A DNA stretch of 49,142 nt. It comes from Pseudobutyrivibrio sp. (GTDB lineage Bacteria; Bacillota; Clostridia; Lachnospirales; Lachnospiraceae). Made by a program: the position numbers and the translations under genes. Shown piece by piece: positions 441 to 41,057 of the stretch. The stretch spans positions 1-49,142 of the forward strand of contig JAILGH010000032.1 in NCBI GenBank assembly GCA_024697025.1, read 5' to 3'. Every line of letters begins with the position of its first letter. The stretch's first letter is position 1. The notes under the pieces were generated by a model. That model was given only the letters and a program-made list of their open reading frames with translations. It was not told the origin of the DNA and did not search any database.

Positions 441-1259
441 ATGGCAAGAAAAGATAAAGAAAGAGTACAAAGTAGGATATGGAATATAATTGGAAAGAAC
501 CTATATGATAGAAGAATTAATAAAGGGGCAATTAAAAATCTGAATCAATTCTCAAAAGAGATGTCTGAAAATAATATAATACCTGAGGGATATAAAAAAC
601 GTTTTAAAGAGAATACTGAGCAAATAATTAACGATATTAAGAATGAGAAATTATCAATATGGAGAGAATTAAAAAATTTTTATCATAAAAAACCGACAGA
701 GCGAAGTACGCTTTACAAAAATGCTATACGTTTAGCTAGTGGAGTTGCTGCGTATTATTCGAATGTTGAGCTTTTTAATGTCTTTAATAATAATGAGAAT
801 TATGATTTTGTAGAATTTAACGATGTTTCAAAAAATGCTGATGATTTAGAAACTATAATTAAAATTGCAATTTTAGAACGCAATAGCGAAGAAAAATATA
901 ATTGTATAGTAGAAGATTTTAGCCATAATCTTTATGATTATTATAATAAAGATAGAACCATTATTCATAATAAGAAAGATATTAAAAAACTTAGTGAAAA
1001 TTTAAAAAATAAAAAAGTAAATGATTATATATATAAACCGCCATTGAAGCAACCTTCTTCTACTGTGTACTATTATAATTATATAGATGAAACAAAAAAC
1101 CTTCGATTGGAGCAACTTTATCCTAGTGTGCGCTATAATAATTTAAATAAAAAAACTAATAAACCGTTAATAGAAAATTCCTCGCTTACTATTGATAAAA
1201 AACGTAAACGCGAAGGAAACGATGAAGTGCCTGTTGCTAAGAAGCTGCGTTTCAAATAG
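441..1259 (+). CDS. A+T-rich orphan family protein A (unknown function)
   Basis: A 272-residue protein I do not recognise. It starts after AGGAGGGAAAAGAA, a good ribosome site. The first ~190 residues are rich in Lys, Asn, Glu and Ile and look helical. Residues ~195-240 are Tyr/Pro/Asn-rich, including YYYNY. The tail is very basic, with KKRKR at 253-257 and AKKLRFK as the last seven residues. No signal peptide, membrane segment or catalytic motif is visible. Base composition is far from that of its neighbours: bases 901-960 hold 13 G+C of 60, against 24 of 60 at 12901-12960 in ffh. It is monocistronic, between the copy-1 element and the terminator at 1294. The shared flanks and tail style place it with the genes at 1629, 2961 and 40044. 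Horizontal acquisition is likely, function unknown. Confidence 0.75.
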   Translation: MARKDKERVQSRIWNIIGKNLYDRRINKGAIKNLNQFSKEMSENNIIPEGYKKRFKENTEQIINDIKNEKLSIWRELKNFYHKKPTERSTLYKNAIRLASGVAAYYSNVELFNVFNNNENYDFVEFNDVSKNADDLETIIKIAILERNSEEKYNCIVEDFSHNLYDYYNKDRTIIHNKKDIKKLSENLKNKKVNDYIYKPPLKQPSSTVYYYNYIDETKNLRLEQLYPSVRYNNLNKKTNKPLIENSSLTIDKKRKREGNDEVPVAKKLRFK

Positions 1260-1293
1260 AATTCTATAAAAATCTAAATAGCAAGTATTTTAC

Positions 1294-1338
1294 ACACATT
1301 CATTTTGCAGATATCAATTGCAAGATGAATGTGTTTTT
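1294..1338 (+). terminator. orphan-family terminator, copy 1
   Basis: ACACATTCAT (1294-1303) pairs with ATGAATGTGT (1325-1334), with further TTGCA/TGCAA pairing inside, followed by TTTTT. The same ten-base stem ends the next two orphan genes. Confidence 0.8.
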
Positions 1339-1483
1339 AAATTATTTACGTAAATTATTGCATACTAATGACTTGTCTGATCATCCTACAAATCCATATT
1401 TACCAAAAAGCTTTAATCCAATTTCCAATTATGGAAAAATAAATAATAATGGCTCCCCAATACATAATATGAAAAGAGGATAA
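1325..1483 (+). pseudogene. possible remnant of another orphan-family gene
   Basis: A 52-codon open frame overlaps the right arm of the terminator and ends TAA at 1481-1483. It is too short for a family member and has no ribosome site. The peptide (NPYLPKSFNPISNYGKINNN, then ending NMKRG) has the Pro/Ser/Tyr/Asn-rich linker and short basic end seen at the C-termini of the full-length members. It is followed by a hairpin terminator, as a gene end would be. I infer a decayed 3' end. Chance openness in A+T-rich DNA is a serious alternative. Confidence 0.3.
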
Positions 1484-1500
1484 TTATATTTATTTTTTTA

Positions 1501-1536
1501 AGAGTGAAATCAAAGAAAGATTTCACTCTTTTTTTT
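1501..1536 (+). terminator. second copy of the rpmF-type terminator
   Basis: An 11-bp stem AGAGTGAAATC (1501-1511) with GATTTCACTCT (1519-1529), then eight T. The arms match the rpmF terminator at 279-304 almost base for base, which suggests duplication during insertion of the island. No intact gene end lies just upstream, only the remnant frame. Confidence 0.75.
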
Positions 1537-1537
1537 C

Positions 1538-1579
1538 AAAATGGAAAAAAGTAGATGGATTTTTTTGAATAGTAAATAG
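1538..1579 (+). promoter_or_regulatory. orphan-family upstream element, copy 2
   Basis: AAATGG plus an A-tract at 1539-1550, 22 bases from ATGG to GAAT (1567-1570), three bases, then AAATAG (1574-1579). It starts two bases after a terminator T-run. No good sigma-A -10 lies 17 bases after TTGAAT here. Confidence 0.6.
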
Positions 1580-1628
1580 ATGATAAGCTACAACATACAT
1601 TAGACTAAAATATTTAGGAGGACCAATT

Positions 1629-2813
1629 ATGAGAATTAATGTAGAAGAAGTGGAAAAATTTATAAAAAAACAAAGCAATAGCACTAGATTTCGTTACAGA
1701 AAAGCGTGGAATGCATTTAAAAATAATGCTAATAATGTGACTGCTGAAGAGTTGAAAGAACTTGCGATTGATTTCTGCAAAGATACATTGGAGGATAAGA
1801 TTTCAGCTGTTGGATATAATGAAATTAGTAATGAGAGTATAAGAGAGATAGTTAAAGAAACAGCTAGAATAATGACTGCGCTAAAATCAATTAATGATAA
1901 AGTGATAAAAATAGATGGACTTTTAGATGAATTATTCATCAAAACTAATAGAGGAACAAGCTTTACTGATGGTATTGTAAAAAAGAAATTAAGAGAGATA
2001 GTGTCAGAGGAAAAAATAAGTTTATCACCTCAAGATAAAGGAATAGTTTTAGATTATCTTTCTAATAGTAAACAAAATATTGTAAGATTTTTTGGTGAAG
2101 ATATAAATACATATTTCAGTGAAAAAAGTTCTGTGAAAAAAAGTAACGTGAATTCTTTTCTAAATTATGTTTCGCCCCTAAGAACAGAAGCTATAAAAAT
2201 ACTGGCTCGTGACCCGAAGGCTTCTGTAATTTATAAATCGGACTCAGAGACGTTAAAAAATGTAAACACAGATGATGTATATAATGTTTGTAAAAAAATT
2301 ATATTTGAAATAATGGATGGGAAAGATATAAGAAAAATAAACACTGATGATAAAAATAGAACAATTAGTAAGATTCAAGATGTTTTAAGACACACGAGTG
2401 ATGTGTATGATGAGTTTTTTAAAAATAAAAATCCGATAAAGGGGTTACAAGAGAGTCGTAAATGTAAAAAGCTTAAAACATTATGCAATAATGTTTTTGA
2501 ATCGATTACCAAAGAAATGAGTGCAGAAGAAGTAAAGAAAAATAAAGCGGGGTCGACAAATGAAAAAAAGTCTTCGGAAGAATGTATTTACCTAAGAAAG
2601 CGTTTTAGGGATGATGATATTGAAGAATATTCAATAGCATCCTCTTCTTCTGTGGCTTCAGATATACCGTCGAATTATAGCTATGTTAGCGGGAGAATGT
2701 CTCCCTATTATCCTAATAATAATTTAGGTGAAGGAAATCATAAGACTTTATCTAAAGCCTCTGAACATGCTACAAAGAAGATGCGTCTGAATTCGACTTT
2801 TGGACCTAAATAA
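1629..2813 (+). CDS. A+T-rich orphan family protein B (unknown function)
   Basis: A 394-residue protein I do not recognise. The start follows TTAGGAGGACCAATT. The opening ~60 residues (VEKFIKKQSNSTRFRYRKAW, then a helical stretch) loosely recall N-terminal SAM-like domains of tyrosine recombinases, but no catalytic R-H-R-Y region follows. Most of the rest is charged and helical. Residues ~317-322 are basic (LRKRFR), 346-365 form a Ser/Tyr/Pro/Asn linker, and the last 12 are KKMRLNSTFGPK. The linker resembles protein C (both IPS...S.YS/YV...YP.N). The tail resembles those of C and D. No signal peptide or membrane helix is seen. Monocistronic between the copy-2 element and the terminator at 2822. 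A+T-rich like protein A. Confidence 0.75.
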   Translation: MRINVEEVEKFIKKQSNSTRFRYRKAWNAFKNNANNVTAEELKELAIDFCKDTLEDKISAVGYNEISNESIREIVKETARIMTALKSINDKVIKIDGLLDELFIKTNRGTSFTDGIVKKKLREIVSEEKISLSPQDKGIVLDYLSNSKQNIVRFFGEDINTYFSEKSSVKKSNVNSFLNYVSPLRTEAIKILARDPKASVIYKSDSETLKNVNTDDVYNVCKKIIFEIMDGKDIRKINTDDKNRTISKIQDVLRHTSDVYDEFFKNKNPIKGLQESRKCKKLKTLCNNVFESITKEMSAEEVKKNKAGSTNEKKSSEECIYLRKRFRDDDIEEYSIASSSSVASDIPSNYSYVSGRMSPYYPNNNLGEGNHKTLSKASEHATKKMRLNSTFGPK

Positions 2814-2821
2814 TTATATAT

Positions 2822-2867
2822 ACACATTCATTTTGTATATAATATGCGAGATGAATGTGTTTTTTTT
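2822..2867 (+). terminator. orphan-family terminator, copy 2
   Basis: ACACATTCAT (2822-2831) pairs with ATGAATGTGT (2851-2860) around a 19-base loop, followed by an eight-base T-run. Confidence 0.85.
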
Positions 2868-2880
2868 ATTTTTTTGCTTG

Positions 2881-2921
2881 AAATGGAAAAAAATAGGTAA
2901 ATCTTTTTGAATTAATAATAT
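2881..2921 (+). promoter_or_regulatory. orphan-family upstream element, copy 3
   Basis: AAATGG plus an A-tract at 2881-2893, 22 bases from ATGG to GAAT (2909-2912), three bases, then TAATAT (2916-2921). It lies 14 bases after the T-run of the preceding gene's terminator. GGAG at 2948-2951 serves the start at 2961. Confidence 0.6.
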
Positions 2922-2960
2922 AGAAAGTAATAAAAAGATAATTTATTGGAGAATTAAGAT

Positions 2961-3905
2961 ATGAGTAATTCAAATGAAATGATTTCAAATAAAGAAATGT
3001 GGGAAAATTTAATAACATATTATGATGATGTTTGCACGTTAATGAATAAGAAAAGGGATCAATGCCAGGACATTTATAATAGTGTTCTAAGAATTGATGA
3101 CTTATCACTTAAAAAAGATTTTTTTGAAGAAAATACTCGTGTGATTGCTAAATTAAACAAAGTTCAATGGAATTTAGGCAATATAATAAAGAGACTTTCC
3201 AATGTATATCCAGAATCAATTTCAAAGAATGATTATAATCTTTTTCTAGAGAATATTAAAAATAATACACTAACGGATATTCAAAAAGCTGATGAGATAA
3301 TTGAGGAACATCAACTGAAAGCTAATAAACTAATTGATATTAATAAACCCAAAAATGAAATAAGCAAATCTCATAGTGAGGATGTTATTGACCATAAGCA
3401 GGAATTAATATCAAATTTAGAAAAATATAGGTCTGATATCGAAAATAAGATTAATAAAAAATATGTAGAGTTAAAAAATCTATATTGGGATAATAAATGC
3501 GGAGAGAAGCCGTTTGATGAATTATCAATTGAATTAGCAGAGATAAAGAGTTTATGTACCAAAGACATAGACGATGCTATCAATCGTATTAAAAAAATGG
3601 ATGCTTCTACTGTTGATAAGAGTGAGATAGACAGAGACTATATTGACACGATTAGTGCGGTTGAATTTTCATTCAAACATGATATTGCAAATTATGATAA
3701 TAAATTAGCTGTAAAGACAAACAATGATAATAAACAAGGTGTAAAGTTAAAAGAAAAGGAAGAGATAGTTATTCCTTCTTATAAATCTGCCTATAGTGAT
3801 TCTTATCCCCAAAATTCATGGATGCAGAGAAGTATTCAAGTGAGCAATGGGCAAAAAAATCAACAGGTAAATATTCAGAGAAATACTGGTCTAAAATTTA
3901 AATAA
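2961..3905 (+). CDS. A+T-rich orphan family protein C (unknown function)
   Basis: A 314-residue protein I do not recognise. Residues ~1-255 are charged and probably helical or coiled coil, with many Lys/Glu/Asp/Asn in heptad-like spacing. Residues 271-286 form a linker (IPSYKSAYSDSYPQNS) resembling that of protein B. The last ten residues are IQRNTGLKFK. There is no signal peptide, membrane segment or catalytic motif. The start is chosen for GGAGAATTAAGAT upstream. It is the last gene of the island before plsX, has its own upstream element and terminator, and shares the A+T-rich composition and heavy ATA/AGA codon use of its neighbours in the island. Confidence 0.75.
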   Translation: MSNSNEMISNKEMWENLITYYDDVCTLMNKKRDQCQDIYNSVLRIDDLSLKKDFFEENTRVIAKLNKVQWNLGNIIKRLSNVYPESISKNDYNLFLENIKNNTLTDIQKADEIIEEHQLKANKLIDINKPKNEISKSHSEDVIDHKQELISNLEKYRSDIENKINKKYVELKNLYWDNKCGEKPFDELSIELAEIKSLCTKDIDDAINRIKKMDASTVDKSEIDRDYIDTISAVEFSFKHDIANYDNKLAVKTNNDNKQGVKLKEKEEIVIPSYKSAYSDSYPQNSWMQRSIQVSNGQKNQQVNIQRNTGLKFK

Positions 3906-3968
3906 TTTATTATAGAGTTATACTGTGGATATTAAAAATTAAATATAAGCTTATAGAAAACAATATAT

Positions 3969-4018
3969 ACACATTCATTTTACTTATAACACATGTAAAA
4001 TGAATGTGTAATTTTTTT
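3969..4018 (+). terminator. orphan-family terminator, copy 3
   Basis: A perfect 15-bp stem (3969-3983 with 3995-4009) whose outer ten bases are again ACACATTCAT/ATGAATGTGT. A T-run starts at 4012. It insulates the plsX operon from the island. Confidence 0.9.
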
Positions 4019-4030
4019 ACCTTTTTTTGT

Positions 4031-4059
4031 TTGAATTATCCCCCTATATAAAGTATACT
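4031..4059 (+). promoter_or_regulatory. plsX operon promoter (sigma-A type)
   Basis: TTGAAT (4031-4036), 17-base spacer, TATACT (4054-4059). It lies after the last island terminator and 70 bases before the plsX start, so plsX-acpP keeps its own promoter despite the island. Confidence 0.7.
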
Positions 4060-4128
4060 TTAGTGAGTATGTAAAGCTAGATTATGATAGATATAAGTGT
4101 GAGTTTTATCTGTCAGGAAGGGGCAAAC

Positions 4129-5151
4129 ATGAGTGAATATACAGTAGTTGCACTTGATGCAATGGGCGGAGATAACGCGCCTAAGGCTATGGTTCTTGGT
4201 GCAGTCAATGCAGTCAGTGCAAATGATAAGATAAAGGTTATTCTTGTGGGAAATGAGTCTGCGATTCAAAGCGAGTTAGCACAGTACAAGTACCCACAGG
4301 AGCAGATAGAGATTAAGAATGCCACAGAGGTTATCGAGACCGCTGAGCATCCAGTTATGGCCATCAAGAAGAAGAAGGATTCTTCAATGGTTGTAGGCTT
4401 GCATTTAGTTAAGGACGGCACCGCTGATGCCTTTGTTTCTGCGGGCAATTCAGGTGCTCTTTTAGTAGGTAGCCTTGGTATTGTAGGTCGTATCCGTGGT
4501 ATTGAGAGAGCTCCATTTGGTACACTCTTTCCAGTTAAGAATGGCGTTGCCCTTTTAGCTGATTCTGGAGCAAATGTAGATTGTAGAGCAAGTCATCTGG
4601 TTCAGTTTGCCAAGATGGGTAGCATTTATATGGAAAAGGTTGTTGGTATCAAGAATCCTAAGGTGGCCATTGTCAATATTGGCGCCGAGGAGGAAAAGGG
4701 CAATGCACTTGTTAAGGAGACTATGCCTCTATTAAAGGAGTGTCAGGATATCAACTTTATCGGTAGCATCGAGGCTAGGGAGATTCCTTCTGGCTATGCT
4801 GATGTCATCGTATGCGACGGCTTCGTAGGAAACGTTATTTTGAAATTATTCGAGGGTCTTGCAAAGACTCTGTTTTCAGTAGTTAAGGAAGGCTTCATGA
4901 CCAATATTCGTTCTAAGATTGGTGCAGTACTTGCCCTTCCAGCTCTCAAGAATAAGCTTAAGACATTTGACGCCTCTGAATACGGCGGGGCGCCTCTTCT
5001 CGGCTTAAACGGTCTTGTGGTCAAGACACACGGCAGCGCCGAGGACAAGGAGGTTACTAATACAATTATTCAGTGTCTTACTTTCAAAGAGCAAAAGATT
5101 AATGAGTTTATTAGAGAAAATATTGTGATAGAAAAACAAAAGGAGGAATAA
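4129..5151 (+). CDS. plsX: phosphate acyltransferase PlsX
   Basis: A 340-residue enzyme that converts acyl-ACP and phosphate to acyl-phosphate, the first step of phosphatidic acid synthesis in Firmicutes (family knowledge). The N-terminus MSEYTVVALDAMGGDNAP carries the diagnostic DAMGGD at 10-15, and the body has GNSGALLVG. I chose ATG 4129, which has GGAAGGGG upstream and gives the usual PlsX start. An in-frame ATG at 4084 would add 15 residues but has no ribosome site. acpP follows after two bases. PlsX works with PlsY (23209) and GpsA (23896) elsewhere in this window. Confidence 0.96.
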   Translation: MSEYTVVALDAMGGDNAPKAMVLGAVNAVSANDKIKVILVGNESAIQSELAQYKYPQEQIEIKNATEVIETAEHPVMAIKKKKDSSMVVGLHLVKDGTADAFVSAGNSGALLVGSLGIVGRIRGIERAPFGTLFPVKNGVALLADSGANVDCRASHLVQFAKMGSIYMEKVVGIKNPKVAIVNIGAEEEKGNALVKETMPLLKECQDINFIGSIEAREIPSGYADVIVCDGFVGNVILKLFEGLAKTLFSVVKEGFMTNIRSKIGAVLALPALKNKLKTFDASEYGGAPLLGLNGLVVKTHGSAEDKEVTNTIIQCLTFKEQKINEFIRENIVIEKQKEE

Positions 5152-5153
5152 CA

Positions 5154-5390
5154 ATGGAATTCGATTTATTGAAGGAAATTATTGCTGAGGTTTTAAATGT
5201 AGATGCGGCAGAAATCAAGTTAAGCACAACTTTCGTTGATGACCTTGGTGCTGATTCTCTTGATGTATTCCAGATTATCATGGGCGTTGAAGAAAAGCTT
5301 AACATCGAAGTTGACACAGACGCAGCTGAGAAGCTTTCTACTGTTGGTGATGCTGTTGATTTGATCAAGAAGACAGTCGCTGAAAATTAA
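5154..5390 (+). CDS. acpP: acyl carrier protein
   Basis: A 78-residue acidic protein with the phosphopantetheine attachment motif GADSLD (Ser35). It carries acyl chains during fatty acid synthesis and donates them to PlsX. The start lies two bases after the plsX stop, with AAAGGAGGAA upstream. Length and motif are standard. A hairpin follows before rnc. Confidence 0.96.
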   Translation: MEFDLLKEIIAEVLNVDAAEIKLSTTFVDDLGADSLDVFQIIMGVEEKLNIEVDTDAAEKLSTVGDAVDLIKKTVAEN

Positions 5391-5404
5391 TTAAACCACA
5401 TTTT

Positions 5405-5429
5405 GAGTACCCAGTTAATCTGGGTGCTC
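5405..5429 (+). other. acpP-rnc intergenic hairpin
   Basis: GAGTACCCAG (5405-5414) pairs over ten bases, one of them G-U, with CTGGGTGCTC (5420-5429) around a five-base loop. No real T-run follows. It could be a weak attenuator, an mRNA stabiliser that favours high acpP levels, or an RNase III site regulating rnc. Confidence 0.5.
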
Positions 5430-5452
5430 TCTTTAAACTCAGGAGGTTTATT

Positions 5453-6154
5453 TTGAAGGATTTAAAGGAGTTTCAAAAGACTATTGGTTATGAGTTTAGA
5501 GACGAAAGCTTACTAAGGCAGGCGCTTACCCATAGCAGCTATGCCAATGAGCATCACATGAAGAAGCTCTCCGACAACGAGAGACTTGAGTTTTTAGGTG
5601 ATGCTGTTCTTGAAATAGTTTCTAGTGAGTTTTTGTATCTAAATTATACCGATTTAAATGAGGGCAAGCTTTCAAGGCTTAGAGCAAGCATTGTTTGTGA
5701 GCCTACACTTGCATACATTTGCAAAGAGATTAATCTTGGGGACTATGTGTTGCTTTCAAAGGGCGAGGACATGACTGGTGGCCGTGAGCGCAAGTCAATT
5801 CTTTCTGATGCCTTTGAGGCTACTATAGGGGCTATTTTTCTTGACGGTGGAATGGAGCCTGCTTCCAAGTATATTCATCGTTTCGTGTTAAACGATATTG
5901 AGCATAAGCAGCTATTTCATGACAGCAAGACTAGACTCCAAGAGGTTATTCAGGCTAATTTCAAGGAGCCACTTGTTTACAACCTTATTTCAGAGACTGG
6001 CCCAGATCACGCTAAGGAGTTTAAGGTTGAGGCTGTTGTAGGTGGTCGTGTCCTTGGTTCAGGAGTAGGTAGGACTAAAAAGGCTGCAGAGCAGGAGGCC
6101 GCTTACGAAGGCCTTATGAAGCTTCACAAGGAAGATTCAATTAAAATCATTTAG
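5453..6154 (+). CDS. rnc: ribonuclease III
   Basis: A 233-residue double-strand-specific endoribonuclease for rRNA precursor and mRNA processing. The N-terminal RNase III domain has the signature NERLEFLGD (42-50) and a second acidic site in DAFEATIGAIFLDGG. A dsRNA-binding domain occupies about 155-225, with the closing TKKAAEQEAA. The start is TTG, supported by CAGGAGGTTTATT just upstream. The order acpP-rnc-smc-ftsY is conserved in Firmicutes. Confidence 0.96.
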   Translation: MKDLKEFQKTIGYEFRDESLLRQALTHSSYANEHHMKKLSDNERLEFLGDAVLEIVSSEFLYLNYTDLNEGKLSRLRASIVCEPTLAYICKEINLGDYVLLSKGEDMTGGRERKSILSDAFEATIGAIFLDGGMEPASKYIHRFVLNDIEHKQLFHDSKTRLQEVIQANFKEPLVYNLISETGPDHAKEFKVEAVVGGRVLGSGVGRTKKAAEQEAAYEGLMKLHKEDSIKII

Positions 6155-6164
6155 GGAGTTTACA

Positions 6165-9100: not shown

Positions 9101-9725
9101 TGCTATTCGTGCAATGGGCAACGTCAATGTCAACGCCATTGAGGAGTACAAGGAGCTTTCGGAGCGTTACAACTTCCTTAAGGGACAGCATGACGATTTG
9201 GTTGAGGCTGAGGCTTCACTTGTACGTATCATTGATGAGTTGGACGAAGGTATGCGTCGCCAGTTTGAGGCAGGATTTAAGGATATTAAGGTGCAGTTTG
9301 ATAAGGCCTTTAAGGAACTTTTCGGAGGTGGTCACGGTACCTTAGAGCTTGTTGATGATAACGACCTTCTTGAGACAGGTATTATTATCAATGCACAGCC
9401 ACCAGGAAAGAAGCTTATTAACATGATGCAAATGTCCGGTGGTGAGAAATCGCTTACAGCTATTGCATTGTTGTTTGCAATTCAAAATCTTAAGCCTTCT
9501 CCATTCTGTCTTCTCGACGAGATTGAGGCGGCCCTTGATGATGCAAACGTTGATAGATTCGCAACTTATTTACACAAGCTTACAAAGAATACTCAGTTTA
9601 TTGTTATCACACACCGTCGTGGTACTATGAATGCCGCAGACAGACTGTTTGGTATTACCATGCAGGAAAAGGGTGTATCAGCCCTTGTTTCGGTTAACTT
9701 AATTGAGTCACAGTTGGATGATTAG
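6165..9725 (+). CDS. smc: chromosome segregation ATPase SMC
   Basis: A 1186-residue condensin subunit of the usual SMC length. Walker A GPNGSGKSN is at 31-39. Two long coiled coils flank the hinge, about residues 510-670, with glycine-rich GSMAGG near its end. The C-terminal head has the signature SGGEKS at about 1089 and Walker B with LLDEIEAALDD at about 1113. It dimerises at the hinge and, with ScpA/ScpB (not in the window), organises newly replicated DNA. It starts 10 bases after rnc and is two bases from ftsY, so it is probably one transcript. Confidence 0.97.
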   Translation: MYLKSIELYGFKSFAHKMKFEFHNGITGIVGPNGSGKSNVADAVRWVLGEQSAKQLRGASMQDVIFAGTEARKPLSYAYVALTMDNSDHVLPVDYEEVTIARRVYRSGESEYLLNGSPCRLKDVSELFYDTGVGKEGYSIIGQGQIEKILSGKPEDRRELFDEAVGIVKFKKRKAASVKKLESERENLVRVNDILSEQERRIGPLEKQSEDAKQYLKYKEELKRIDVNSFMLEVDRLQGELEKVESNVNIASEQMASSKSAQDEIRQKYDSLEQEITELDEHIETLKQNQSDSTLLKGKLENEIALLEEQIRSANATDENLASRVAEIQAEIDDKNKQLDEYKEEKVSLDKTLEEAVERLASVKNNYSELQSAIVSNNEKIEQNNQAIMELLNNRASIKSKEQRLETMLEQTNIRKAKLNQRLLERKTKEEDLDVAVSLAEDEFKNAQTLLLDLQEKDKEFSEKAAEWKEKSRKTFDELQAKKDEFARVQTKLESVKNIAERYEGYGNSTRRVMEQKGKVKGIEGVVSDLIHVEKKYEMAIETALGGNIQNIVTADEACAKTLINFLKENKLGRATFLPLTSVDGRGNFKKTEVLKEKGVLGLASELVECDSKFDGVIAYLLGRVVVTDHIDSAIALAKKNSYSIHIVTLDGEYLAPGGSMAGGHFKNKSNLLGRNREIEELESKLDVISKEMDELNSRASDIEAAAALLESDREDNTTKLNEAAIALNTAKLGLDRANEQKKESLTAYEGLSKESEELETQLLEIASGKKEIELEKQESDTKEAELREEIQKLNDEVDEKTYMETSVNRTMSEVQIEEANARNKVDFVQQNIDRILAEIEKSQGDIESLNENARSTKEETEAKKARIEEIKETISASDESFGQLESEIKETVAKREALNNSHKNFFEQRQEISDRITELDKEIYRLESQKEKINDAISYQNNYMWNEYELTYHSAEELKDPEYNDLDQMKKDASKIKNAIRAMGNVNVNAIEEYKELSERYNFLKGQHDDLVEAEASLVRIIDELDEGMRRQFEAGFKDIKVQFDKAFKELFGGGHGTLELVDDNDLLETGIIINAQPPGKKLINMMQMSGGEKSLTAIALLFAIQNLKPSPFCLLDEIEAALDDANVDRFATYLHKLTKNTQFIVITHRRGTMNAADRLFGITMQEKGVSALVSVNLIESQLDD

Positions 9726-9727
9726 TT

Positions 9728-31904: not shown

Positions 31905-31928
31905 GGCGTCTGGCAAACACCAGACGCC
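31905..31928 (+). terminator. dut downstream hairpin
   Basis: A perfect nine-base GC-rich stem GGCGTCTGG (31905-31913) with CCAGACGCC (31920-31928) around six bases. The following bases are not a T-run, so termination may be partial. Confidence 0.5.
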
Positions 31929-31964
31929 ATTAGTAATGTATTGAAAGAAAGAGAGTAATTAATT

Positions 31965-33890: not shown

Positions 33891-33906
33891 AAAGGGTTAT
33901 ATATAA

Positions 33907-36147
33907 ATGGCACAAGATATTATTAGAACAGAATATTCTGAGATAATGCAAAAATCCTTCATAGATTATTCTATGTCTGTCATACTTGCCCGTGCAGTAC
34001 CAGATGTTAGAGATGGTCTTAAGCCAGTACAGCGTCGTACTCTTTACGATATGTACGAGCTGAAGGTTGATTATAATAAACCATACAAAAAGTCAGCCCG
34101 TATCGTAGGTGATACAATGGGTAAATATCATCCACATGGTGACAGCTCAATTTACGAAGCCTTGGTTGTTATGAGCCAGGACTTCAAAAAGAGCCTTCCA
34201 CTTGTAGATGGTCATGGTAACTTTGGTTCTATCGAGGGTGATGGAGCCGCTGCCATGCGTTACACAGAGGCTAGACTTGCCAAGGTGGCGCAAGAAGTTT
34301 ACCTTGGTGATTTAGATAAAAATGTAGTAGATTTTGTACCAAACTATGATGAGACAGAAAAGGAGCCAGAGGTTCTTCCAGTTCGTGTTCCAAACCTTCT
34401 CATTAACGGTTCAGATGGTATTGCCGTAGGTATGGTTACATCTATTCCTCAGCATAATTTAGGTGAGGTAGTCGACGGTGTTATTGCTTACATGAAAAAT
34501 CCAGACATCAACACCAAGGAAATGCTTGAAATCATTCCTGGTCCAGATTTTCCAACTGGCGGTATTGTAACCAACAAGGATGATTTGCTTGAGATTTATT
34601 CTACTGGTGTTGGCAAAATAAAGATTCGTGGCAAGGCCGAAATCGAGAAGATTAAAGGCGGCAAGGAGCAAATCGTAATTACGGAGATTCCTTATCCAAT
34701 GATAGGAGCCAACATAGGAAAGTTCCTGAATGACATTTTCTCCCTTGTTGAATCTAAAAAGACAAACGATATTACTGATATTTCAAATCAGTCAAAGGGT
34801 GAACAGATGAGAATTGTCATCGAGCTTAGAAAGGGCTCTGATGCACAAAATGTTCTCAATCTTTTATACAAGAAGACTCGTTTGGAGGATACCTTTGGTG
34901 TAAATATGCTTGCTGTTGCTGATGGCAAGCCAGAGACACTAGGCATTGTTCCAATTATTAGACATCATGTTAATTTCCAGTATGAGCTTTGCACTAGAAA
35001 GTACACACATCTTCTTGGCAAGGAAAACGACAAAAAGGAAATTCAAGAAGGCTTAATAAAGGCCTGTGATGTTATCGATTTGATTATCGAGATTTTACGT
35101 GGTTCTCAGGATATTAAGCAGGCCAAAGCATGTCTTGTTGACGGTATCACTGCAGGTATTAAGTTTAAGTCACAGCAGTCTAAAAGGGATGCTGAGCAGC
35201 TTCATTTTACTGATAGACAGGCTCAGGCAATTCTTGATATGAGACTTCATAGATTAATCGGCCTTGAAATCGAGGCTCTTCGTGCAGATTATGATGAGAC
35301 TCTAGGGAAGATTGCTACCTACAGCAAGATTCTTGGCTCTCGCGCAGAGATGGCCAAGGTTATTATCAAGGACCTTCAAGCAATCAAAAAGGAATACGCA
35401 AAAGAGCGTCGCACTGTCATCGACAATGTTGAGGAGGCAATTGTAGAAGAGAAGCCAATCGAGGTTATTGATGTGGCAGTTCTTATCGATAGATTTGCTT
35501 ATGCTAGGGTTGTGGATATGCCAACTTACGAGCGTAACAAAGAGGCTGCAGAGATTGAGTCTAAAAAGATTATCTTCTGCAAGAATGTTGACAAGCTTTG
35601 TCTATTCACTGAAAAGGGCGACATGCATACAGTTAAGGTTCTAAGCCTTCCATTTGGTAAGTTTAGAGACAAGGGGCAGCCAATTGATACAGCTGAAAAG
35701 GGCTCTAAGATTGACTTGAACAAGGAGAATCTATTGCTTGCTGATTCTATGGCAAATATTGTTTCTAAGAAGCTATTGTTTGGTACCAAGCAGTCTATGA
35801 TTAAAGTTGTAGATGGAACTGAGTTTGATGTATCAAGAAAGCTTATTGCTGCAACTAAGCTTGCAGATAAGGATGAGTTGATTTGCGTTAAGATTATTGG
35901 TGAAGGCGATACTGTAGTAATGCAGTCAGCTAAGGATATGTTCCTTAGAATTCAGGGAGATACAATTCCTGCCAAGAAGAAAACTGCTGTTGGTGTACGT
36001 GGAATGAAGCTTGCAAAGGGTGATGAGCTTGTTGAGATTCACGTTCTTGCTGAGGGCGAAGCCAAGGATGTTAAGGTTAAGGACAAGGAGATTTCTCTTA
36101 ACAGACTTCACATTGCATCTCGAGACACTAAGGGAGTTAAGAAATGA
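33907..36147 (+). CDS. parC: type IIA topoisomerase subunit A (ParC-like)
   Basis: A 746-residue DNA-cleaving subunit. The active tyrosine is Y119 in AAMRYTEARL. The quinolone region reads HPHGDSSIYEAL, with S80 and E84 at the positions equivalent to GyrA S83/D87, i.e. no common resistance change. The C-terminal beta-pinwheel (about 500-740) has no recognisable GyrA box (QRRGGKG type); FGKFRDKG occupies a comparable place. That favours a decatenating topoisomerase IV rather than gyrase. The stop overlaps the next gene. Confidence 0.82.
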   Translation: MAQDIIRTEYSEIMQKSFIDYSMSVILARAVPDVRDGLKPVQRRTLYDMYELKVDYNKPYKKSARIVGDTMGKYHPHGDSSIYEALVVMSQDFKKSLPLVDGHGNFGSIEGDGAAAMRYTEARLAKVAQEVYLGDLDKNVVDFVPNYDETEKEPEVLPVRVPNLLINGSDGIAVGMVTSIPQHNLGEVVDGVIAYMKNPDINTKEMLEIIPGPDFPTGGIVTNKDDLLEIYSTGVGKIKIRGKAEIEKIKGGKEQIVITEIPYPMIGANIGKFLNDIFSLVESKKTNDITDISNQSKGEQMRIVIELRKGSDAQNVLNLLYKKTRLEDTFGVNMLAVADGKPETLGIVPIIRHHVNFQYELCTRKYTHLLGKENDKKEIQEGLIKACDVIDLIIEILRGSQDIKQAKACLVDGITAGIKFKSQQSKRDAEQLHFTDRQAQAILDMRLHRLIGLEIEALRADYDETLGKIATYSKILGSRAEMAKVIIKDLQAIKKEYAKERRTVIDNVEEAIVEEKPIEVIDVAVLIDRFAYARVVDMPTYERNKEAAEIESKKIIFCKNVDKLCLFTEKGDMHTVKVLSLPFGKFRDKGQPIDTAEKGSKIDLNKENLLLADSMANIVSKKLLFGTKQSMIKVVDGTEFDVSRKLIAATKLADKDELICVKIIGEGDTVVMQSAKDMFLRIQGDTIPAKKKTAVGVRGMKLAKGDELVEIHVLAEGEAKDVKVKDKEISLNRLHIASRDTKGVKK

Positions 36148-36797
36148 TTAAAAACATTTTATTTGATTTAGACGGTACAATTGTTGATTCAGCACCTAGT
36201 ATAATCGATTGTCTTAAAAAGGCTCTCAATAAATACGGATATGAGATTCCTGATTATGCTACACTTCGTAAATGCGTAGGGCCACCTTTTACATATTCTT
36301 TTCCTAACTACTTGCACGTCAAGCCAGAGGATATGACGGATATGATTACAACCTACAGATACTATTACGACACTGAGAATTGCTGCTTGCAGGCAGATGT
36401 ATTTGAAGGTGTAGAGGGGCTTTTAAACTCCCTTGTCAAAAGGGGCTACAACCTGATGGTCTGTACGTCAAAGCCGGAGCCTACTGCAAGAAAGCTTTTA
36501 GAAAATCTTGGGGTTGCCCAGTATTTTACTGATATCTGTGGCGCCACCATGGATGCCAAGATTGACACTAAGGCTCAGGTGATTGACCTTTGTTTTAAAA
36601 GGGCTCCTTGGATGACTAAGGAGGACACAGTTCTCATTGGTGACACAAAGTTTGATTGTGATGGCGCCAACCAAAGAAATATAGATTGCATTGGTATTAC
36701 ATGGGGCTTTGGCGAAAGACAAGACCTTGTGGAACATGACGCAGCTGTGATATTGGACTTTCCAAGCGAGGTATTAGATTATATTGAATCAAATTAA
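36144..36797 (+). CDS. HAD-family hydrolase (phosphoglycolate phosphatase-like)
   Basis: A 217-residue haloacid dehalogenase-type phosphatase. Motif I is FDLDGT with nucleophile Asp8. The cap domain spans about 18-85. Motif II is in VCTSKPEPT, and motif IV is LIGDTKFDCDGA. It resembles the Gph/PgpA-like subgroup acting on small phosphorylated metabolites, but the substrate is not determinable. It starts in an ATGA overlap with parC, so translation is coupled. Confidence 0.88.
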   Translation: MIKNILFDLDGTIVDSAPSIIDCLKKALNKYGYEIPDYATLRKCVGPPFTYSFPNYLHVKPEDMTDMITTYRYYYDTENCCLQADVFEGVEGLLNSLVKRGYNLMVCTSKPEPTARKLLENLGVAQYFTDICGATMDAKIDTKAQVIDLCFKRAPWMTKEDTVLIGDTKFDCDGANQRNIDCIGITWGFGERQDLVEHDAAVILDFPSEVLDYIESN

Positions 36798-37425
36798 GTT
36801 TAATCGCATAAATAAAATACTATATCCATTATTTATTTACTTTATTGTGTACCAAGTTGGCGGTAACTTTTTGTTTTTAGAATTTGGAGAAAAATGGGGC
36901 AGACCACTCTGCCTCATTATTTCAGGTTTAGTTTGTCTTGTACCACTAGGATTAATGTACAAGGCATCGCCAAAGCTTATTCCAGATAAGATTACTTCGG
37001 CAAAGCAGGTTGTTTACTTGGCACTGCAGGTTGTTGCGGTAGTAGCAATTGGCATTATTTTAAATGTTATTCTTACTCAGTCGGGTCTTGTTAATCAGTC
37101 CAAGGGATATGCCAAGGCTAAGGAAACTCTTTTAGATGGAAGCATTTTTATTCAGATACTTTGTAGTGTTATTGTGGTACCGATTTTAGAGGAAATACTC
37201 CTTAGAGGAATAATTTGTACGCAAGTTTATTTTTGGCATGGTCCTTGGATGGCAATCATAACTTCGTCAATTTTTTTTGGTATTCTGCATAATAATATAG
37301 TACAATTTATTTATGCATTAGTTATTGGGTTGGGACTTGGGTTTATTTTTATCAAGAGTAAGAGGTTATCCATTTGCATTCTTGCCCATAGCATTATTAA
37401 TCTTGTAGTTATACTACTTACATGA
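36784..37425 (+). CDS. CPBP-family intramembrane metalloprotease
   Basis: A 213-residue membrane protein with about six helices and the CPBP (Abi) glutamic-protease motifs: EEILLRG (about 136-142), FGILHNN (about 166-172) and LAHSIIN (about 200-206). Eukaryotic relatives cut prenylated proteins; bacterial ones act in bacteriocin self-immunity or membrane proteolysis. The TTG start overlaps the HAD gene by 14 bases, with GAGG inside that gene; the start is less certain than the rest. Confidence 0.82.
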   Translation: MNQIKFNRINKILYPLFIYFIVYQVGGNFLFLEFGEKWGRPLCLIISGLVCLVPLGLMYKASPKLIPDKITSAKQVVYLALQVVAVVAIGIILNVILTQSGLVNQSKGYAKAKETLLDGSIFIQILCSVIVVPILEEILLRGIICTQVYFWHGPWMAIITSSIFFGILHNNIVQFIYALVIGLGLGFIFIKSKRLSICILAHSIINLVVILLT

Positions 37426-37439
37426 TGGACGGAGGTATT

Positions 37440-37907
37440 ATGGAGGACAAAGTTACACTTACTATTGGGAAACAAAAAAGCATTGCACTTATTGCACATG
37501 ATGGCAAAAAGCCACTACTAATCGACTGGTGCATGGAAAATAAAGAGATTTTACAGCAGCATGTTCTTTGCGGAACAGGTACAACTGCTCGTATGATTTC
37601 CGACAAGACAGGTCTTACTGTTAAGGGCTACAACTCAGGTCCACTTGGTGGTGACCAGCAGATAGGAGCTAAGGTTGTTGAAGGCAGAATTGATTTGATT
37701 ATTTTCTTTTCTGATCCACTTACAGCCCAGCCTCATGATCCAGATGTTAAGGCGCTTGTGAGAATTGCTCAGGTTTATGATATTCCTATTGCAGTCAACA
37801 AGGCTTCGGCTGATTTCATGATTAAATCTGCCTTTATGAATGAGTGCTATGATCACGACGTAATTAATTTCCAGAAGAACATTGATCAGAGAGCTAAAAC
37901 TCTTTAA
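37440..37907 (+). CDS. mgsA: methylglyoxal synthase
   Basis: A 155-residue enzyme converting dihydroxyacetone phosphate to methylglyoxal and phosphate, an overflow bypass of glycolysis. Motifs: IALIAHDGKK, GTGTTARMI, NSGPLGGDQQIGAKV with the catalytic Asp, and FFSDPLTAQPHDPDVKAL. I chose ATG 37440, preceded by GGAGG; an in-frame ATG at 37422 overlaps the protease gene. Confidence 0.95.
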   Translation: MEDKVTLTIGKQKSIALIAHDGKKPLLIDWCMENKEILQQHVLCGTGTTARMISDKTGLTVKGYNSGPLGGDQQIGAKVVEGRIDLIIFFSDPLTAQPHDPDVKALVRIAQVYDIPIAVNKASADFMIKSAFMNECYDHDVINFQKNIDQRAKTL

Positions 37908-37917
37908 GGAGGACGAT

Positions 37918-38652
37918 ATGGCAAACAATACAGGAGAAATTAAAGAATCTAAAGCAGGCTTAGCAGCACATATTATTGGTTCTATAGCATTTCTTGCAGT
38001 TGGTATATGTTTATATGTTTTTGACAACAACTTTATTTCAACTTTAGTTTACAGTTATTCTGTTTTGGCAGTTGGAGTTTTGTTTATTATCTTTGGCGCG
38101 TACTACATGATTAAATATTTCTTTAATGGTGAATACGCAAGGATTTCCAACTATGGATTTACCATGGGTGTGATTCTAGTAATCATTGGTTCGGCTATCA
38201 TCTTTAAGGCTGACATTATATCAAGCTTTATTGATGCTGGTATTTGTCTTATTGGTGCTGTGCTAGGCGCAGTTATGCTTCAGCAGTCATTTGCACTTTT
38301 TCATATGCAAAGAGGCATATGGTTTTTGAATCTTATCTTTGGACTTGCTGCAATTGGCGCTAGCGCTTATGTTTTGTTAGAGCAGTTCAAGTTCTTTGAT
38401 GGTAGCTTTTTAAGTTGTCTTTATTTGATTGTTATGGGAGCGGTTTCTTTATTCTCGCTTTTATTAATGGCAATCGGTCTCAAGGATCACAAGAATGACT
38501 CCGAGAGAGCGTTAAAGCGCAATATTGAAGAGGCGCCAGACAAGAATGCAGTTGATGAATCTATATTTGAGGATGAACCTGTTTCTGAGGTTGAGGAGGC
38601 CTTTGTAGAGGAGCCACAGCCTGGTGATGATTCTTTATTTGATGAGGAATAA
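37918..38652 (+). CDS. multi-pass membrane protein with acidic C-tail (DUF308-like)
   Basis: A 244-residue protein with about six membrane helices (residues ~15-185) in three helical pairs, a layout like HdeD/DUF308 proteins. The last ~45 residues are strongly acidic and cytoplasmic (EDEPVSEVEEAFVEEP). I do not recognise a specific family with certainty. TAAGGAGGACGAT precedes ATG 37918, ten bases after mgsA, and the next gene follows by six bases. Confidence 0.7.
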   Translation: MANNTGEIKESKAGLAAHIIGSIAFLAVGICLYVFDNNFISTLVYSYSVLAVGVLFIIFGAYYMIKYFFNGEYARISNYGFTMGVILVIIGSAIIFKADIISSFIDAGICLIGAVLGAVMLQQSFALFHMQRGIWFLNLIFGLAAIGASAYVLLEQFKFFDGSFLSCLYLIVMGAVSLFSLLLMAIGLKDHKNDSERALKRNIEEAPDKNAVDESIFEDEPVSEVEEAFVEEPQPGDDSLFDEE

Positions 38653-38658
38653 TTAAAT

Positions 38659-39795
38659 ATGTCAAATATTTTGGATTACTTGGATTGGAGAGCGGATATA
38701 CCTTTTGAGGTTGATCCATTCAATGAGGTGGACAGCCTGGTTTTGTGCGAGCTGGTTTACACAGCCTTTGATGACATCGTTCCTGGTCCTGGCCTTAAGG
38801 ATAAAATCTCCATTGAGGATGCCTGTAATCTGTTTTTTGAAAAGTATTCTAAGGAGGAACTTTTGGCTAAGACTAATCTTACAAAGGTTGCTCCTTTTCT
38901 CATGGAAAAGATGGCAGGCTCTGTAAGATATGGAGGCATGAAGTTATCCGGCTTTGTAAATGAGATAGACGCAATCGACCAGCTTCAATTTGCTGCCTGT
39001 ACATTTCATTTGACCGACGGCACTATTTTTGTGGCCTTCAGAGGTACAGACGACAGCCTGGTGGGCTGGAAGGAAGACTTTAACATGAGCTTTTCCAATG
39101 GTACAGGCGGACAGCGTAAGGCTGTAGAGTATTTAAACGACAATTTTTCCAGCACCATGAGGCCGCTTCGCATTGGCGGTCACTCCAAGGGTGGCAACTT
39201 TGCAGTATATGCCAGTGCCTTTAGCTATTCTCATATTAAGGATAATATTTTAAATATATACAATTTTGACGGCCCGGGCTTCATACCAGAGATTGTTCAG
39301 TCTCAGGAGTACAAGTCAATTGTAAGCAAGATTATAAAGTTTATTCCGGAGGAATCCATAATCGGACTTCTCATGTACACCAAGGCTCAGGTGGAGATAG
39401 TTGAAAGCAGCAACAAAGGCATCAATCAGCACGATTTAATGTCATGGCAAATCACCAAAAATACATTTAATCGTAGAGACGCCGTTGCAGAATCTTCTCT
39501 GGTTACAGATGAGATTTTAAAGAAATGGGTTCTTAAATTTGACTATGAAACAAGGGAGGCCTTTTGTGATATTTTCTTTGGCTCCATGGCGGCTTCCGGT
39601 GCAACAAAGTTCTCGCAGGTTACCTCCAACAAGCCTCGTATGATTGCAACCTTTACCAAGGAGATTCAAAACCTATCTCCTGAAAATCAGGCTCTTGTAA
39701 TAGATGCCATTACAAGCCTTGTGGCTTACAGTGGAGAGAGCATCAAGAATTCAATTCTCTCTAAGATATCTAAGAATATTTTATCTAAAAAATAG
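38659..39795 (+). CDS. DUF2974 (Mbeg1-like) alpha/beta hydrolase
   Basis: A 378-residue protein starting MSNILDYLDWRADIPF, a start typical of the DUF2974 family. It has the lipase-like nucleophile elbow GGHSKGGNFAVYA (Ser at about 174), VAFRGTDDSLVGWKEDF as the oxyanion region, and NFDGPGF with a likely acid residue. The substrate is unknown; the family is common in gut Firmicutes. No signal peptide. It ends the 36144-39795 run, and a terminator overlaps its stop codon. Confidence 0.82.
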   Translation: MSNILDYLDWRADIPFEVDPFNEVDSLVLCELVYTAFDDIVPGPGLKDKISIEDACNLFFEKYSKEELLAKTNLTKVAPFLMEKMAGSVRYGGMKLSGFVNEIDAIDQLQFAACTFHLTDGTIFVAFRGTDDSLVGWKEDFNMSFSNGTGGQRKAVEYLNDNFSSTMRPLRIGGHSKGGNFAVYASAFSYSHIKDNILNIYNFDGPGFIPEIVQSQEYKSIVSKIIKFIPEESIIGLLMYTKAQVEIVESSNKGINQHDLMSWQITKNTFNRRDAVAESSLVTDEILKKWVLKFDYETREAFCDIFFGSMAASGATKFSQVTSNKPRMIATFTKEIQNLSPENQALVIDAITSLVAYSGESIKNSILSKISKNILSKK

Positions 39796-39829
39796 ACAAA
39801 AATCCAGTGGGAGATTTGTCTATTTTTTT
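39791..39829 (+). terminator. DUF2974 gene terminator
   Basis: AATAGACAAA (39791-39800) pairs with TTTGTCTATT (39815-39824), with extra TC/GA pairing inside, then seven T. The left arm includes the stop codon. The fourth orphan-family upstream element follows eight bases later. Confidence 0.85.
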
Positions 39830-39836
39830 ATTGCGG

Positions 39837-39876
39837 AAATGGAAAAATCAAAAAAATTTTATTGAATTGTAAATAG
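39837..39876 (+). promoter_or_regulatory. orphan-family upstream element, copy 4
   Basis: AAATGG plus an A-tract at 39837-39847, 21 bases from ATGG to GAAT (39864-39867), three bases, then AAATAG (39871-39876). This copy also has TTGAAT with TATATT 16 bases on, so a sigma-A reading is possible. The leader to the gene is much longer (about 165 bases) than in the other three. Confidence 0.6.
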
Positions 39877-39964
39877 AAGGCTATATATTAAACCACGACA
39901 TAACAAAAGACTGTTTTATCAATTTTAGAAAGGAGTATATAAAAATTAAGACGTAGGGAGATTT

Positions 39965-39985
39965 ATGAAAAATATCATTAGCTAG
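39965..39985 (+). other. possible six-codon leader peptide
   Basis: ATG AAA AAT ATC ATT AGC TAG, preceded by TAGGGAG at 39954-39960, sits inside the long leader of orphan gene D. It could be a leader peptide coupling translation to expression. Being so short, it may be chance. Confidence 0.25.
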
Positions 39986-40043
39986 AATATGGGGAGATAT
40001 AAAAGATAGTTGATTAAATAATTAGAAAGGGATAGGTGAGAAA

Positions 40044-41057
40044 ATGGAAGTACATGTTGAAGATTTGTTAAATTGTTATTCTCAAACAAATAATATTGAT
40101 AAGGTTAAAGAAAAAATAGATGAATTATTAATGTCTCTTAGCAAGGATGATTTAAATAAACTTTTACTTGAATGTAGAAATAAATTTAGTGATACATATA
40201 AAGATTTGATTTCAGCGCTCAACACAGAACTTACTGAATTAACGGAATATGTCAATAAATATAATACAGAACATTTTAAATTTGATTTTGAAAACAATGG
40301 TAAAATCGATAAAATTTCTGTGGCTGATTATTTAGCTCGATTAAATGCAGATAAATCTACTTTTGATAATTATATCAAAGAGAATTTAGGACAAAAAGGC
40401 ATAGGCCCTCGAAAGACGCGAATAAAAAAATTAGTGGAATACATACATAACTCTGATAATGTAACAAACGAGACTATGGAAAAAATAAAATTTTCTGAAC
40501 AATTAAGGGCTAGTCATAATTTGGGTAAAAAGTTTTTTATGCAGTTTTCTAAGAACGCTAAAAAAATAACAGCAAATATAATTACTCTATGGAAAAGTAG
40601 AAATGGAAGTGGATTGCAAGTATATGATATAGAACGAGATAAATTTATAAATATAAATAAGAATTCTTTGAATTCAGCAAAGCCAGCACAGGTGCAAAAT
40701 GTTTCAAATATTAATGATTCTTCGAAACATCGCGATTATCGCAATTGTTATATTAATAGACAACATAAGTTTAGTGGGCCAACGCCTGTGAAATTAGCAG
40801 ATACGAGCTTTATATATCCGAGGGCACTGGAAACAGAGTATGAATCCGTAAATCCAGCCGTAGACGAAAGTATATATCAGCTGGATCCCAAAAGAATAGA
40901 TAGTGCGGCATATTCTGAAGAACATAGTGAAACATTGAAGCGTAATAACGAAGGTAAAAAAATGGCTAGTAGAGATAAGTCGTATCCGGCTTCCACATCT
41001 ATTACAGCTAATGGTAATTCAATGAAACAACGAAATAGCACGCATTCTCTTAATTGA
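40044..41057 (+). CDS. A+T-rich orphan family protein D (unknown function)
   Basis: A 337-residue protein I do not recognise, isolated from the other three members by 36 kb. Residues ~1-200 are charged and helical (Leu/Lys/Asp/Glu/Asn). The second half is a loosely ordered linker rich in Ser, Asn, Tyr and Pro, and the end is KQRNSTHSLN, resembling the tails of protein B (RLNSTFGPK) and C (QRNTGLKFK). No signal peptide, membrane helix or catalytic motif is seen. The start is supported by GATAGGTGAG. It shares the upstream element and A+T-rich composition with A-C but lacks their ACACATTCAT terminator; a different hairpin follows at 41088. Confidence 0.75.
   Translation: MEVHVEDLLNCYSQTNNIDKVKEKIDELLMSLSKDDLNKLLLECRNKFSDTYKDLISALNTELTELTEYVNKYNTEHFKFDFENNGKIDKISVADYLARLNADKSTFDNYIKENLGQKGIGPRKTRIKKLVEYIHNSDNVTNETMEKIKFSEQLRASHNLGKKFFMQFSKNAKKITANIITLWKSRNGSGLQVYDIERDKFININKNSLNSAKPAQVQNVSNINDSSKHRDYRNCYINRQHKFSGPTPVKLADTSFIYPRALETEYESVNPAVDESIYQLDPKRIDSAAYSEEHSETLKRNNEGKKMASRDKSYPASTSITANGNSMKQRNSTHSLN

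Follow-up and report, generated by a model that had tools for sequence, protein, structure and literature searches.

The principle of a type IV secretion system (T4SS) that delivers effectors is known, and well so in diderm bacteria. In monoderms, according to a passage of PMC12102498, there are only a few reports of protein translocators, all from streptococci, and a passage of PMC4897608 presents SspA-1 of Streptococcus suis as the first virulence effector of a T4SS in Gram-positive bacteria. Among the matches listed in our literature search, titles and abstract openings described no T4SS effector repertoire in Pseudobutyrivibrio or other Lachnospiraceae. Here, we focused on four genes, referred to as A to D, in a window of 49,142 nucleotides (the whole stretch of DNA analyzed), which is contig C50 of a 2.71-Mb, 110-contig genome of Pseudobutyrivibrio sp. 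(G000). Their sequences and genomic context suggest that the products of A to D are probably substrates of a repurposed, conjugation-derived T4SS and members of a large effector-like regulon.

Promoter shared by genes A to D and a secretion locus

Genes A (441..1259; GC content, 26.6%), B (1629..2813), C (2961..3905; 27.5%), and D (40044..41057; 30.3%) are, as originally predicted, intact open reading frames (ORFs) of 272, 394, 314, and 337 amino acids (aa), all on the forward strand, and an ATG and a Shine-Dalgarno-like sequence were found for each. The common promoter that had been proposed for them also holds: near-identical copies of AAATGGAAAAA-N-TGAAT, with almost fixed spacing, match exactly at four places in the window, each time ahead of one of genes A to D, against 0.00 expected in shuffles. 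These copies lie on the same strand at 363..393 for A (AAATGGAAAAA ... GTGAAT; score in a position weight matrix, 38.9), 1539..1570 for B (43.9), 2881..2912 for C (39.4), and 39837..39867 for D (45.1), and the distance from promoter to ATG is 46 nucleotides (nt) for A, 47 nt for C, and 175 nt for D. We read the promoter as TGGAAAA-N14/15-TTTTTTGAATTATAAATAG, in which TGGAAA would be a −35-like and TTGAAT a −10-like element, 16 to 17 bp apart.

The exact pattern was sought in 29 genomes of the genus, a looser one in 8, and a stringent one in genome_contigs. A genome-wide promoter regulon is found only in G000 (13 strict sites) and in G009 (19 sites), a genome of the sister species Pseudobutyrivibrio sp. 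UBA1225, with 0 to 2 sites in the other genus genomes. In G000, the reversed-pattern control of the strict search gave 0 sites, and the looser pattern gave 40 sites versus 5 for its reversed control. The weight matrix was scored only on stretches fetched around pattern matches, not on whole genomes, and sites below 20 were dropped; 44 sites in the G000 stretches score at least 20, three of them without an ORF, and the remaining 41 stand before 40 different ORFs at distances of 38 to 257 nt, except for one T4SS gene at 352 nt. These ORFs comprise 35 candidates without a hydrophobic N terminus, two T4SS genes (one VirB11-like and one VirB6 gene behind the pilin), two secreted paralogues, and one membrane protein. 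The same promoter sequence therefore precedes 35 candidates as well as the pilin gene and the VirB11-like/VirB4 operon, pointing to coregulation of the machine and its putative substrates, and the candidate genes are dispersed over the genome, not gathered on one element. For the candidate set, T4SS genes (L071:11004, L072:5505, and L091:5658) and the membrane protein (L051:3013) were removed by hand, a rule took out four ORFs whose N terminus is hydrophobic, and promoter matches on the T4SS gene L133 and on L135 (gltX, ∼400 nt off) were set aside by hand. Small secreted paralogues (MKKQIIA...) stand behind promoter copies in both species (L021:5157-5723, L021:6786-7304, and L093:2770-3327). 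The genome_contigs search returned five stretches, in which the sole exact stringent match outside Pseudobutyrivibrio sp. UBA1225 was on the record of a Bacillales metagenome-assembled genome (L111, 5283 bases).

The T4SS lies behind the regulon promoter on contig C11 of G000 and comprises genes for a VirB11-like ATPase, a VirB4-N-like protein, VirB4, an NlpC/P60 protein, VirD4, a VirB2-like pilin, four VirB6 proteins, a PrgI-like protein, and membrane proteins, so that VirB4, VirD4, VirB6, a wall hydrolase, and a pilin stand together in one locus, as in a T4SS. According to Pfam and NCBIfam models, VirB4 is of the CD1110 type (576 bits; cutoff, 325) and VirD4 of the CD1115 type (263 bits; cutoff, 250). 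The NlpC/P60 protein scores 40 bits (cutoff, 23), two of the four VirB6 paralogues exceed the TrbL/VirB6 cutoff and the other two are assigned by likeness, and the pilin, which has its own promoter copy, is just under its cutoff (25.3 versus 27.9 bits). Because the VirB11-like ATPase matches T2SSE (79 bits; cutoff, 24.9) and no NCBIfam subfamily at its cutoff, it is best labeled a member of the VirB11/TadA superfamily. T4SSs of Gram-positive bacteria are said to be without VirB11.

No relaxase was seen among the ORFs of the stretch from 1 to 42 kb of contig C11, which were inspected by eye. When relaxases of related elements were used as queries, those of G363 and G005 had no counterpart in G009, that of G005 had none in the genus genomes G012 and G022, and in G000 the queries gave only a 20- to 21-bit match of 25 to 28% identity on a separate element, on contig C74. 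No cognate relaxase was thus found with the T4SS, as an integrative and conjugative element would have. A second region resembling an integrative element lies on contig C74 (L142, L127); it carries VirB4-like and NlpC-like genes of its own, along with a PF03432 relaxase of 387 aa.

The VirB11-like ATPase was sought in the 29 genus genomes and in a sample of 397 genomes of the family, where only four other genomes have it at ∼60% identity. Related elements were found in G363, G131, G224, G078, and the congener G005, whose ATPases are 56 to 61% identical to that of G000 (56% in G005). A relaxase of ∼600 aa adjoins the ATPase at three of the four family loci and lies ∼5 kb away in G078, and the relaxase of G005 also adjoins its ATPase; the relaxases of G363, G131, G224, and G005 pass the PF03432 cutoff, and that of G078 is assigned by similarity. 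Since VirB4 (55 to 56%) and VirD4 (55 to 58%) resemble those of G363 and G131 so closely, descent of the T4SS from such a conjugative element is the simple reading. In the G131 element, the pilin is 59%, VirB6 28%, and the PrgI-like protein 39% identical. Conjugative elements of Lachnospiraceae in which an ATPase of the VirB11/TadA superfamily is encoded next to or close to the relaxase are seen at L103, L105/L106, L101, L100, and L125.

Candidate substrates and their C-terminal tails

The direct candidates number 64, of which 35 are from G000 and 29 from G009, and their median length is ∼336 aa. As background, we used 231 other ORFs from the same loci, whose GC content is 39.7% versus 31.5% in the candidates. 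Segments resembling transmembrane helices were present in only 1 of the 64 candidates, and in 3 of 69 promoter-linked non-T4SS ORFs when the ORFs excluded by the N-terminal rule or by hand were restored, compared with 92 of the 231 background ORFs. Three of 22 operon followers added by hand proved ordinary (MraW/RsmH, AraC, and Amidase_2); they are outside the 64 direct candidates, but the totals of 48 plus 38, and with them the 86-protein set, include them. Pfam models at an E value of 0.001 gave 17 families among these 86 proteins, several of them on one protein and some on the three ordinary followers, as well as weak coiled-coil matches (Fib_alpha in two, KxDL, and GrpE). The domains traced on direct candidates were one Mbeg1-like lipase, one ToxN RNase, and one FliS, and an all-against-all phmmer comparison of 80 proteins revealed no domain common to the set. 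In G009, an Mbeg1-like protein (L085:2305-3957) and a FliS-type flagellar chaperone (L090:919-1290) are each encoded directly behind a regulon promoter, and a 633-aa regulon protein (L089:7356-9257) has an N-terminal ToxN endoribonuclease domain above the Pfam cutoff.

The original prediction described A to D as one new protein family with variable bodies. The all-against-all phmmer comparison found no similarity between the four bodies, which confirms that they vary and argues against a single family. A linker said to be shared by B and C (IPS...S.Y...YP.N) did not hold up either, as phmmer gave no B-C match at an E value of 0.01 and the two stretches align only with gaps. The claim that A to D have no signal peptide was judged right. 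Pfam, PHROGs, and NCBIfam yielded no usable family for any of the four, the best match being that of D to phrog_241 (E value, 0.004). A phage origin was rejected, because A to C have no PHROGs family at an E value of 0.01 and the match of D is weak; the stretch of A to C also had no match in phage records. The model of B is mostly helical up to approximately residue 306 and has no predicted structure for residues 307 to 394 (nt 2547-2810), at low confidence (pLDDT, 41.8), and for this reason no fold is claimed for B. A PDB sequence search with B and its homologue gave no match. Residues 139 to 204 of A weakly match a FliS-type protein of G009 (E value, 0.004).

We compared the last 30 residues of 58 candidates with those of the 163 background ORFs that were left after the same N-terminal filter. 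The candidate tails contain fewer acidic (P = 3e-7) and fewer hydrophobic (P = 6e-18) residues, are enriched in N/Q/S/T (P = 9e-15), and differ in net charge (P = 2e-6), mainly through the lower number of acidic residues. By composition, they thus have the polar C-terminal region of effectors of T4SSs, and the tail of B is unstructured in its low-confidence model. The C-terminal ends quoted for A to D (KKLRFK, RLNSTFGPK, QRNTGLKFK, and QRNSTHSLN) were borne out by ORF translation, the full ends being ...VAKKLRFK in A, which is Lys/Arg rich, MRLNSTFGPK in B, IQRNTGLKFK in C, and MKQRNSTHSLN in D. A motif R-x(0,1)-N-[S/T], which was picked by eye after viewing all G000 tails and with no direct candidates held out, is found within the final 20 residues in 11 of the 35 G000 candidates, versus 2.2 to 2.3 in shuffled tails, and none of 500 shuffles reached 11. 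It is present in 2 of the 231 background ORFs and in 0 to 2 of 35 internal windows of the same proteins; among the operon followers (including the three ordinary ones) it occurs in 2 of 13, which 57 of 500 shuffles equal and which is not significant. The proposed relatedness of the tails therefore goes beyond composition in G000, where B, C, and D carry the motif, but does not extend to A, which lacks it, or to G009, where none of the 29 candidates has it. Many T4SS signals have no consensus. Two neighboring proteins of G009 both end in SPKQQGLG and have weakly similar bodies.

CaaX-like ends with X = L (CTFL, CNIL, and CIIL) were found in 3 of the 64 candidates, compared with ∼0.03 expected (P = 2e-6 to 7e-6, in a post hoc count with two of the three from one locus), and in the proteins ending in CTFL and CNIL the cysteine at position −4 is the only one. 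Legionella T4SS effectors are described in a passage of PMC4951486 as being prenylated by the host at CaaX ends. Nuclear localization signals, which had looked suggestive in A and B, were dropped, as they did not exceed shuffles.

Distribution, turnover, and competing explanations

The T4SS with no relaxase found is present in 4 of the 29 Pseudobutyrivibrio genomes (G000, G009, G012, and G022). G009 has the same machine as G000, also with four VirB6 proteins, and the T4SS locus contains 3 looser promoter sites in G012 and 4 in G022, with 1 more elsewhere in each genome. Within the genus, one species has a relaxase-bearing element, four have a machine with which no relaxase was found, and two of these four have an expanded regulon. 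Between G000 and G009, VirB4 is 87% and plsX 91% identical, whereas B and its homologue at the same locus of G009 share only 35% identity, over residues 1 to 352. Most of the 80 proteins compared by phmmer have no recognizable counterpart between the congeners. The conserved gene that flanks a candidate also flanks a G009 candidate in 8 of 35 cases, and this flank is the T4SS ATPase in 2 of the 8. Judged from these sequences, the same slot contains different cargo in the two species, and the apparent turnover matches the pattern of effectors in conflict or host adaptation.

Genes A, B, and C are located between rpmF and plsX. Terminator-like hairpins follow A (1294..1334; inverted repeat I23 and direct repeats D2/D3, with similar copies after B and C), B (2821..2860; direct repeats D3 and D5 and inverted repeat I2), and C (3968..4010; inverted repeat I20, with arms of 16 nt and 100% complementarity), all on the forward strand. 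A second copy of the terminator-like sequence 3′ of rpmF (original at 279-310) is found on the same strand just 5′ of the B promoter, at 1501..1535 (direct repeats D10, 95%, and D13, 93%). Given these repeated hairpins and the rpmF-end sequence around A to C, local duplication of promoter and terminator seems to have enlarged the slot, with dissimilar coding sequences in between. Gene D lies between groES and a gene for an Mbeg1-like (PF11187) lipase-type protein with no evident signal peptide, which occupies positions 38659-39795, immediately 5′ of the D promoter.

A conserved protein of 297 to 309 aa, encoded on the reverse strand of contig C11 in G000 (L072:11824-12717; contig positions 29823-30716), is perhaps the regulator of the promoter. 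It is present in the same 4 of 29 genus genomes as the T4SS and was not found in the other 396 sampled genomes of the family. It is encoded near the T4SS in G000, G012, and G022, and on contig C10 of G009 together with the S10 operon and a MATE gene. This co-occurrence in four of four genomes and the nearness to the T4SS in three of them make it a candidate. The idea that it is a sigma factor came from our own reading of the sequence and was abandoned after negative Pfam, PDB sequence, and fold searches.

These observations lead us to propose a history and a mechanism. The T4SS of a conjugative element (with VirB4 of the CD1110 type, VirD4 of the CD1115 type, and a VirB11-like ATPase) would have become resident in the genome, with loss of its relaxase, and come under a dedicated promoter, which in two species also precedes dozens of scattered orphan genes. 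A single regulator, perhaps the conserved protein described above, would turn on machine and substrates together. VirD4 would then capture cytosolic helical proteins through their disordered polar C-terminal tails, the NlpC/P60 protein would open the wall, and the channel of pilin and VirB6 would pass the proteins into a contacted cell. If A to D are T4SS substrates, the recipient is slightly more likely than not a eukaryote, given the CaaX-like ends and the lack of immunity partners seen by eye; a rumen ciliate or fungus would be most plausible, and its prenyltransferases could anchor CaaX-ended proteins to membranes. Butyrivibrio, a related genus, was enriched in ciliate-associated communities, which a passage of PMC6079354 discusses mainly as selective predation, and resisting or exploiting a predator would plausibly suit such a system. 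In its full form, we put the idea forward tentatively: a Gram-positive rumen commensal would use a repurposed conjugation machine, controlled by a dedicated promoter and perhaps by a separate, new class of transcription regulator, to inject several dozen rapidly renewed effectors into rumen protists, where some of the effectors would exploit host prenylation, in a Legionella-like manner that arose independently in Firmicutes. If true, this would be a sign that rumen bacteria engage other cells, ciliates for example, in conflict or symbiosis directly at the molecular level.

The original prediction had likened A to D to substrates recognized by a C-terminal sorting signal or to polymorphic effectors. 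This is largely supported, as their promoter is shared by a T4SS, a machine of the sort that C-terminally recognized substrates would require, although the proteins are not a family and the tail motif is specific to one species. Several observations weigh against an effector-delivering T4SS. The T4SS differs in position between G000 and G009, since the block of S10 operon, MATE gene, and conserved protein contains it in G000, whereas in G009 this block is on C10 and the T4SS on C64 (L128 on G009:C10 compared with L071/L072 on G000:C11 and L133/L091 on G009:C64). It may thus have moved between the two or inserted separately, and it may still move, which slightly lowered our confidence. The C74 relaxase of G000 could act in trans. 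The machine of G012 and G022 has no large regulon and looks more antibacterial, with lipase-type and lipoprotein genes next to it. The tails of the candidates are only weakly higher in R+K (P = 0.04), and no signal common to both species was found in them. The CaaX counts are small, and a match is also present in 1 of the 231 background ORFs. Motifs resembling nuclear localization signals show no enrichment (22 of 58 versus 20.9 ± 2.8 in shuffles). The candidate regulator had no match to a family or fold in Pfam, PDB sequence, and fold searches (model pLDDT, 51.5). Finally, the genomes of G000 and G009 are drafts that are ∼91% complete.

The most serious competitor, although an unlikely one, is an antibacterial weapon like that of Xanthomonas, in which the regulon proteins would be toxins against rival rumen bacteria. 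It draws on the T4SS of G012 and G022, which is the same, likewise with no relaxase found, and stands beside Mbeg1-like proteins of 605 to 880 aa and lipoproteins that are possible immunity proteins, and on the ToxN RNase domain of one G009 candidate. Against it, inspection by eye rather than a systematic survey showed no small or lipoprotein gene that regularly accompanies the direct candidates; no domain shared across the set was found, and CaaX-like ends would be useless in bacteria. The large Mbeg1-like proteins near the T4SS of G012 and G022 (L122:6873-9386, L123:4665-7307, and L124:15878-17695), with their lipoprotein-like neighbors, could themselves be antibacterial lipase toxins with immunity lipoproteins, and they have similar ends (...RRMAAHC and ...RKAFAHC).

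We consider it somewhat less probable still that A to D act inside the bacterium, as part of a stress or phase regulon of intracellular coiled-coil proteins in which the T4SS is merely included. Their bodies do look helical and cytosolic, and the regulon also takes in secreted paralogues and a membrane protein, with a FliS homologue as a further member in G009. Yet the high turnover of the candidates next to conserved VirB4 and plsX, the bias of their tails, and their CaaX-like ends suit exported effectors better than housekeeping proteins. That the machine is still conjugative and cotransfers A to D with DNA into bacteria, as antirestriction, establishment, or exclusion factors, appears improbable: the resemblance to conjugative elements of similar gene set and the C74 element with its own VirB4-like gene and relaxase speak for it, and the differing T4SS position slightly raised our estimate, but the cognate relaxase was not found and the candidates are dispersed over the genome. 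Least of all do we expect A to D to be unlinked, unrelated orphans with only compositional similarity of their tails, since, despite bodies without homology and the missing B-C linker match, the shared promoter already contradicts this and the G000 tail motif exceeds every shuffle.

Comparison with known systems

As a substrate-delivering machine, the proposed system resembles Dot/Icm of Legionella, VirB/D4 of Bartonella, and Cag of Helicobacter pylori, which are conjugation-derived, have a VirD4 coupling protein, and serve dispersed effectors with variable bodies. The Legionella AnkB and Pel proteins also have CaaX ends, according to a passage of PMC4951486, and three candidates here have CaaX-like ends. 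It differs from these Gram-negative systems in its monoderm host, its other T4SS class, and the lack of any match to a known effector family, and translocation is putative here. The X-T4SS of Xanthomonas has lipase toxins and lipoprotein immunity, and the neighborhood in G012 and G022 looks similar. The X-T4SS is a T4SS repurposed for protein delivery, as a passage of PMC12624023 describes and as we propose here, but our candidates have no common recognition domain and, by eye, no evident immunity partners.

Among monoderms, the 89K island of S. suis with SspA-1 is alike in that a Gram-positive T4SS is credited with protein export in passages of PMC4897608 and PMC12857230. However, 89K is a mobile island whose same T4SS transfers DNA and for which one effector was reported, whereas here no relaxase was found, the promoter is dedicated, and the candidates number in the dozens. 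The T4SS of Patescibacteria is also from monoderms, conjugation-related, mostly without relaxase, and inferred to be co-opted, as stated in part of PMC12102498. These bacteria belong to another phylum, their system has several VirB2-like pilins (in a passage of PMC12857230) where ours has several VirB6 proteins, and the passages covered mention no effector regulon with a shared promoter. The Lachnospiraceae elements of G363, G131, G224, G078, and G005 have related genes but bear a relaxase, and the promoter matrix or pattern revealed no such regulon in the stretches examined. The lineage, machine type, promoter, and substrates described here are new for an effector T4SS, and the system is a concrete candidate, with a machine, a promoter, and a list of substrates, for a conjugative element that, if the proposal is true, was remade into an injection system within one genus.

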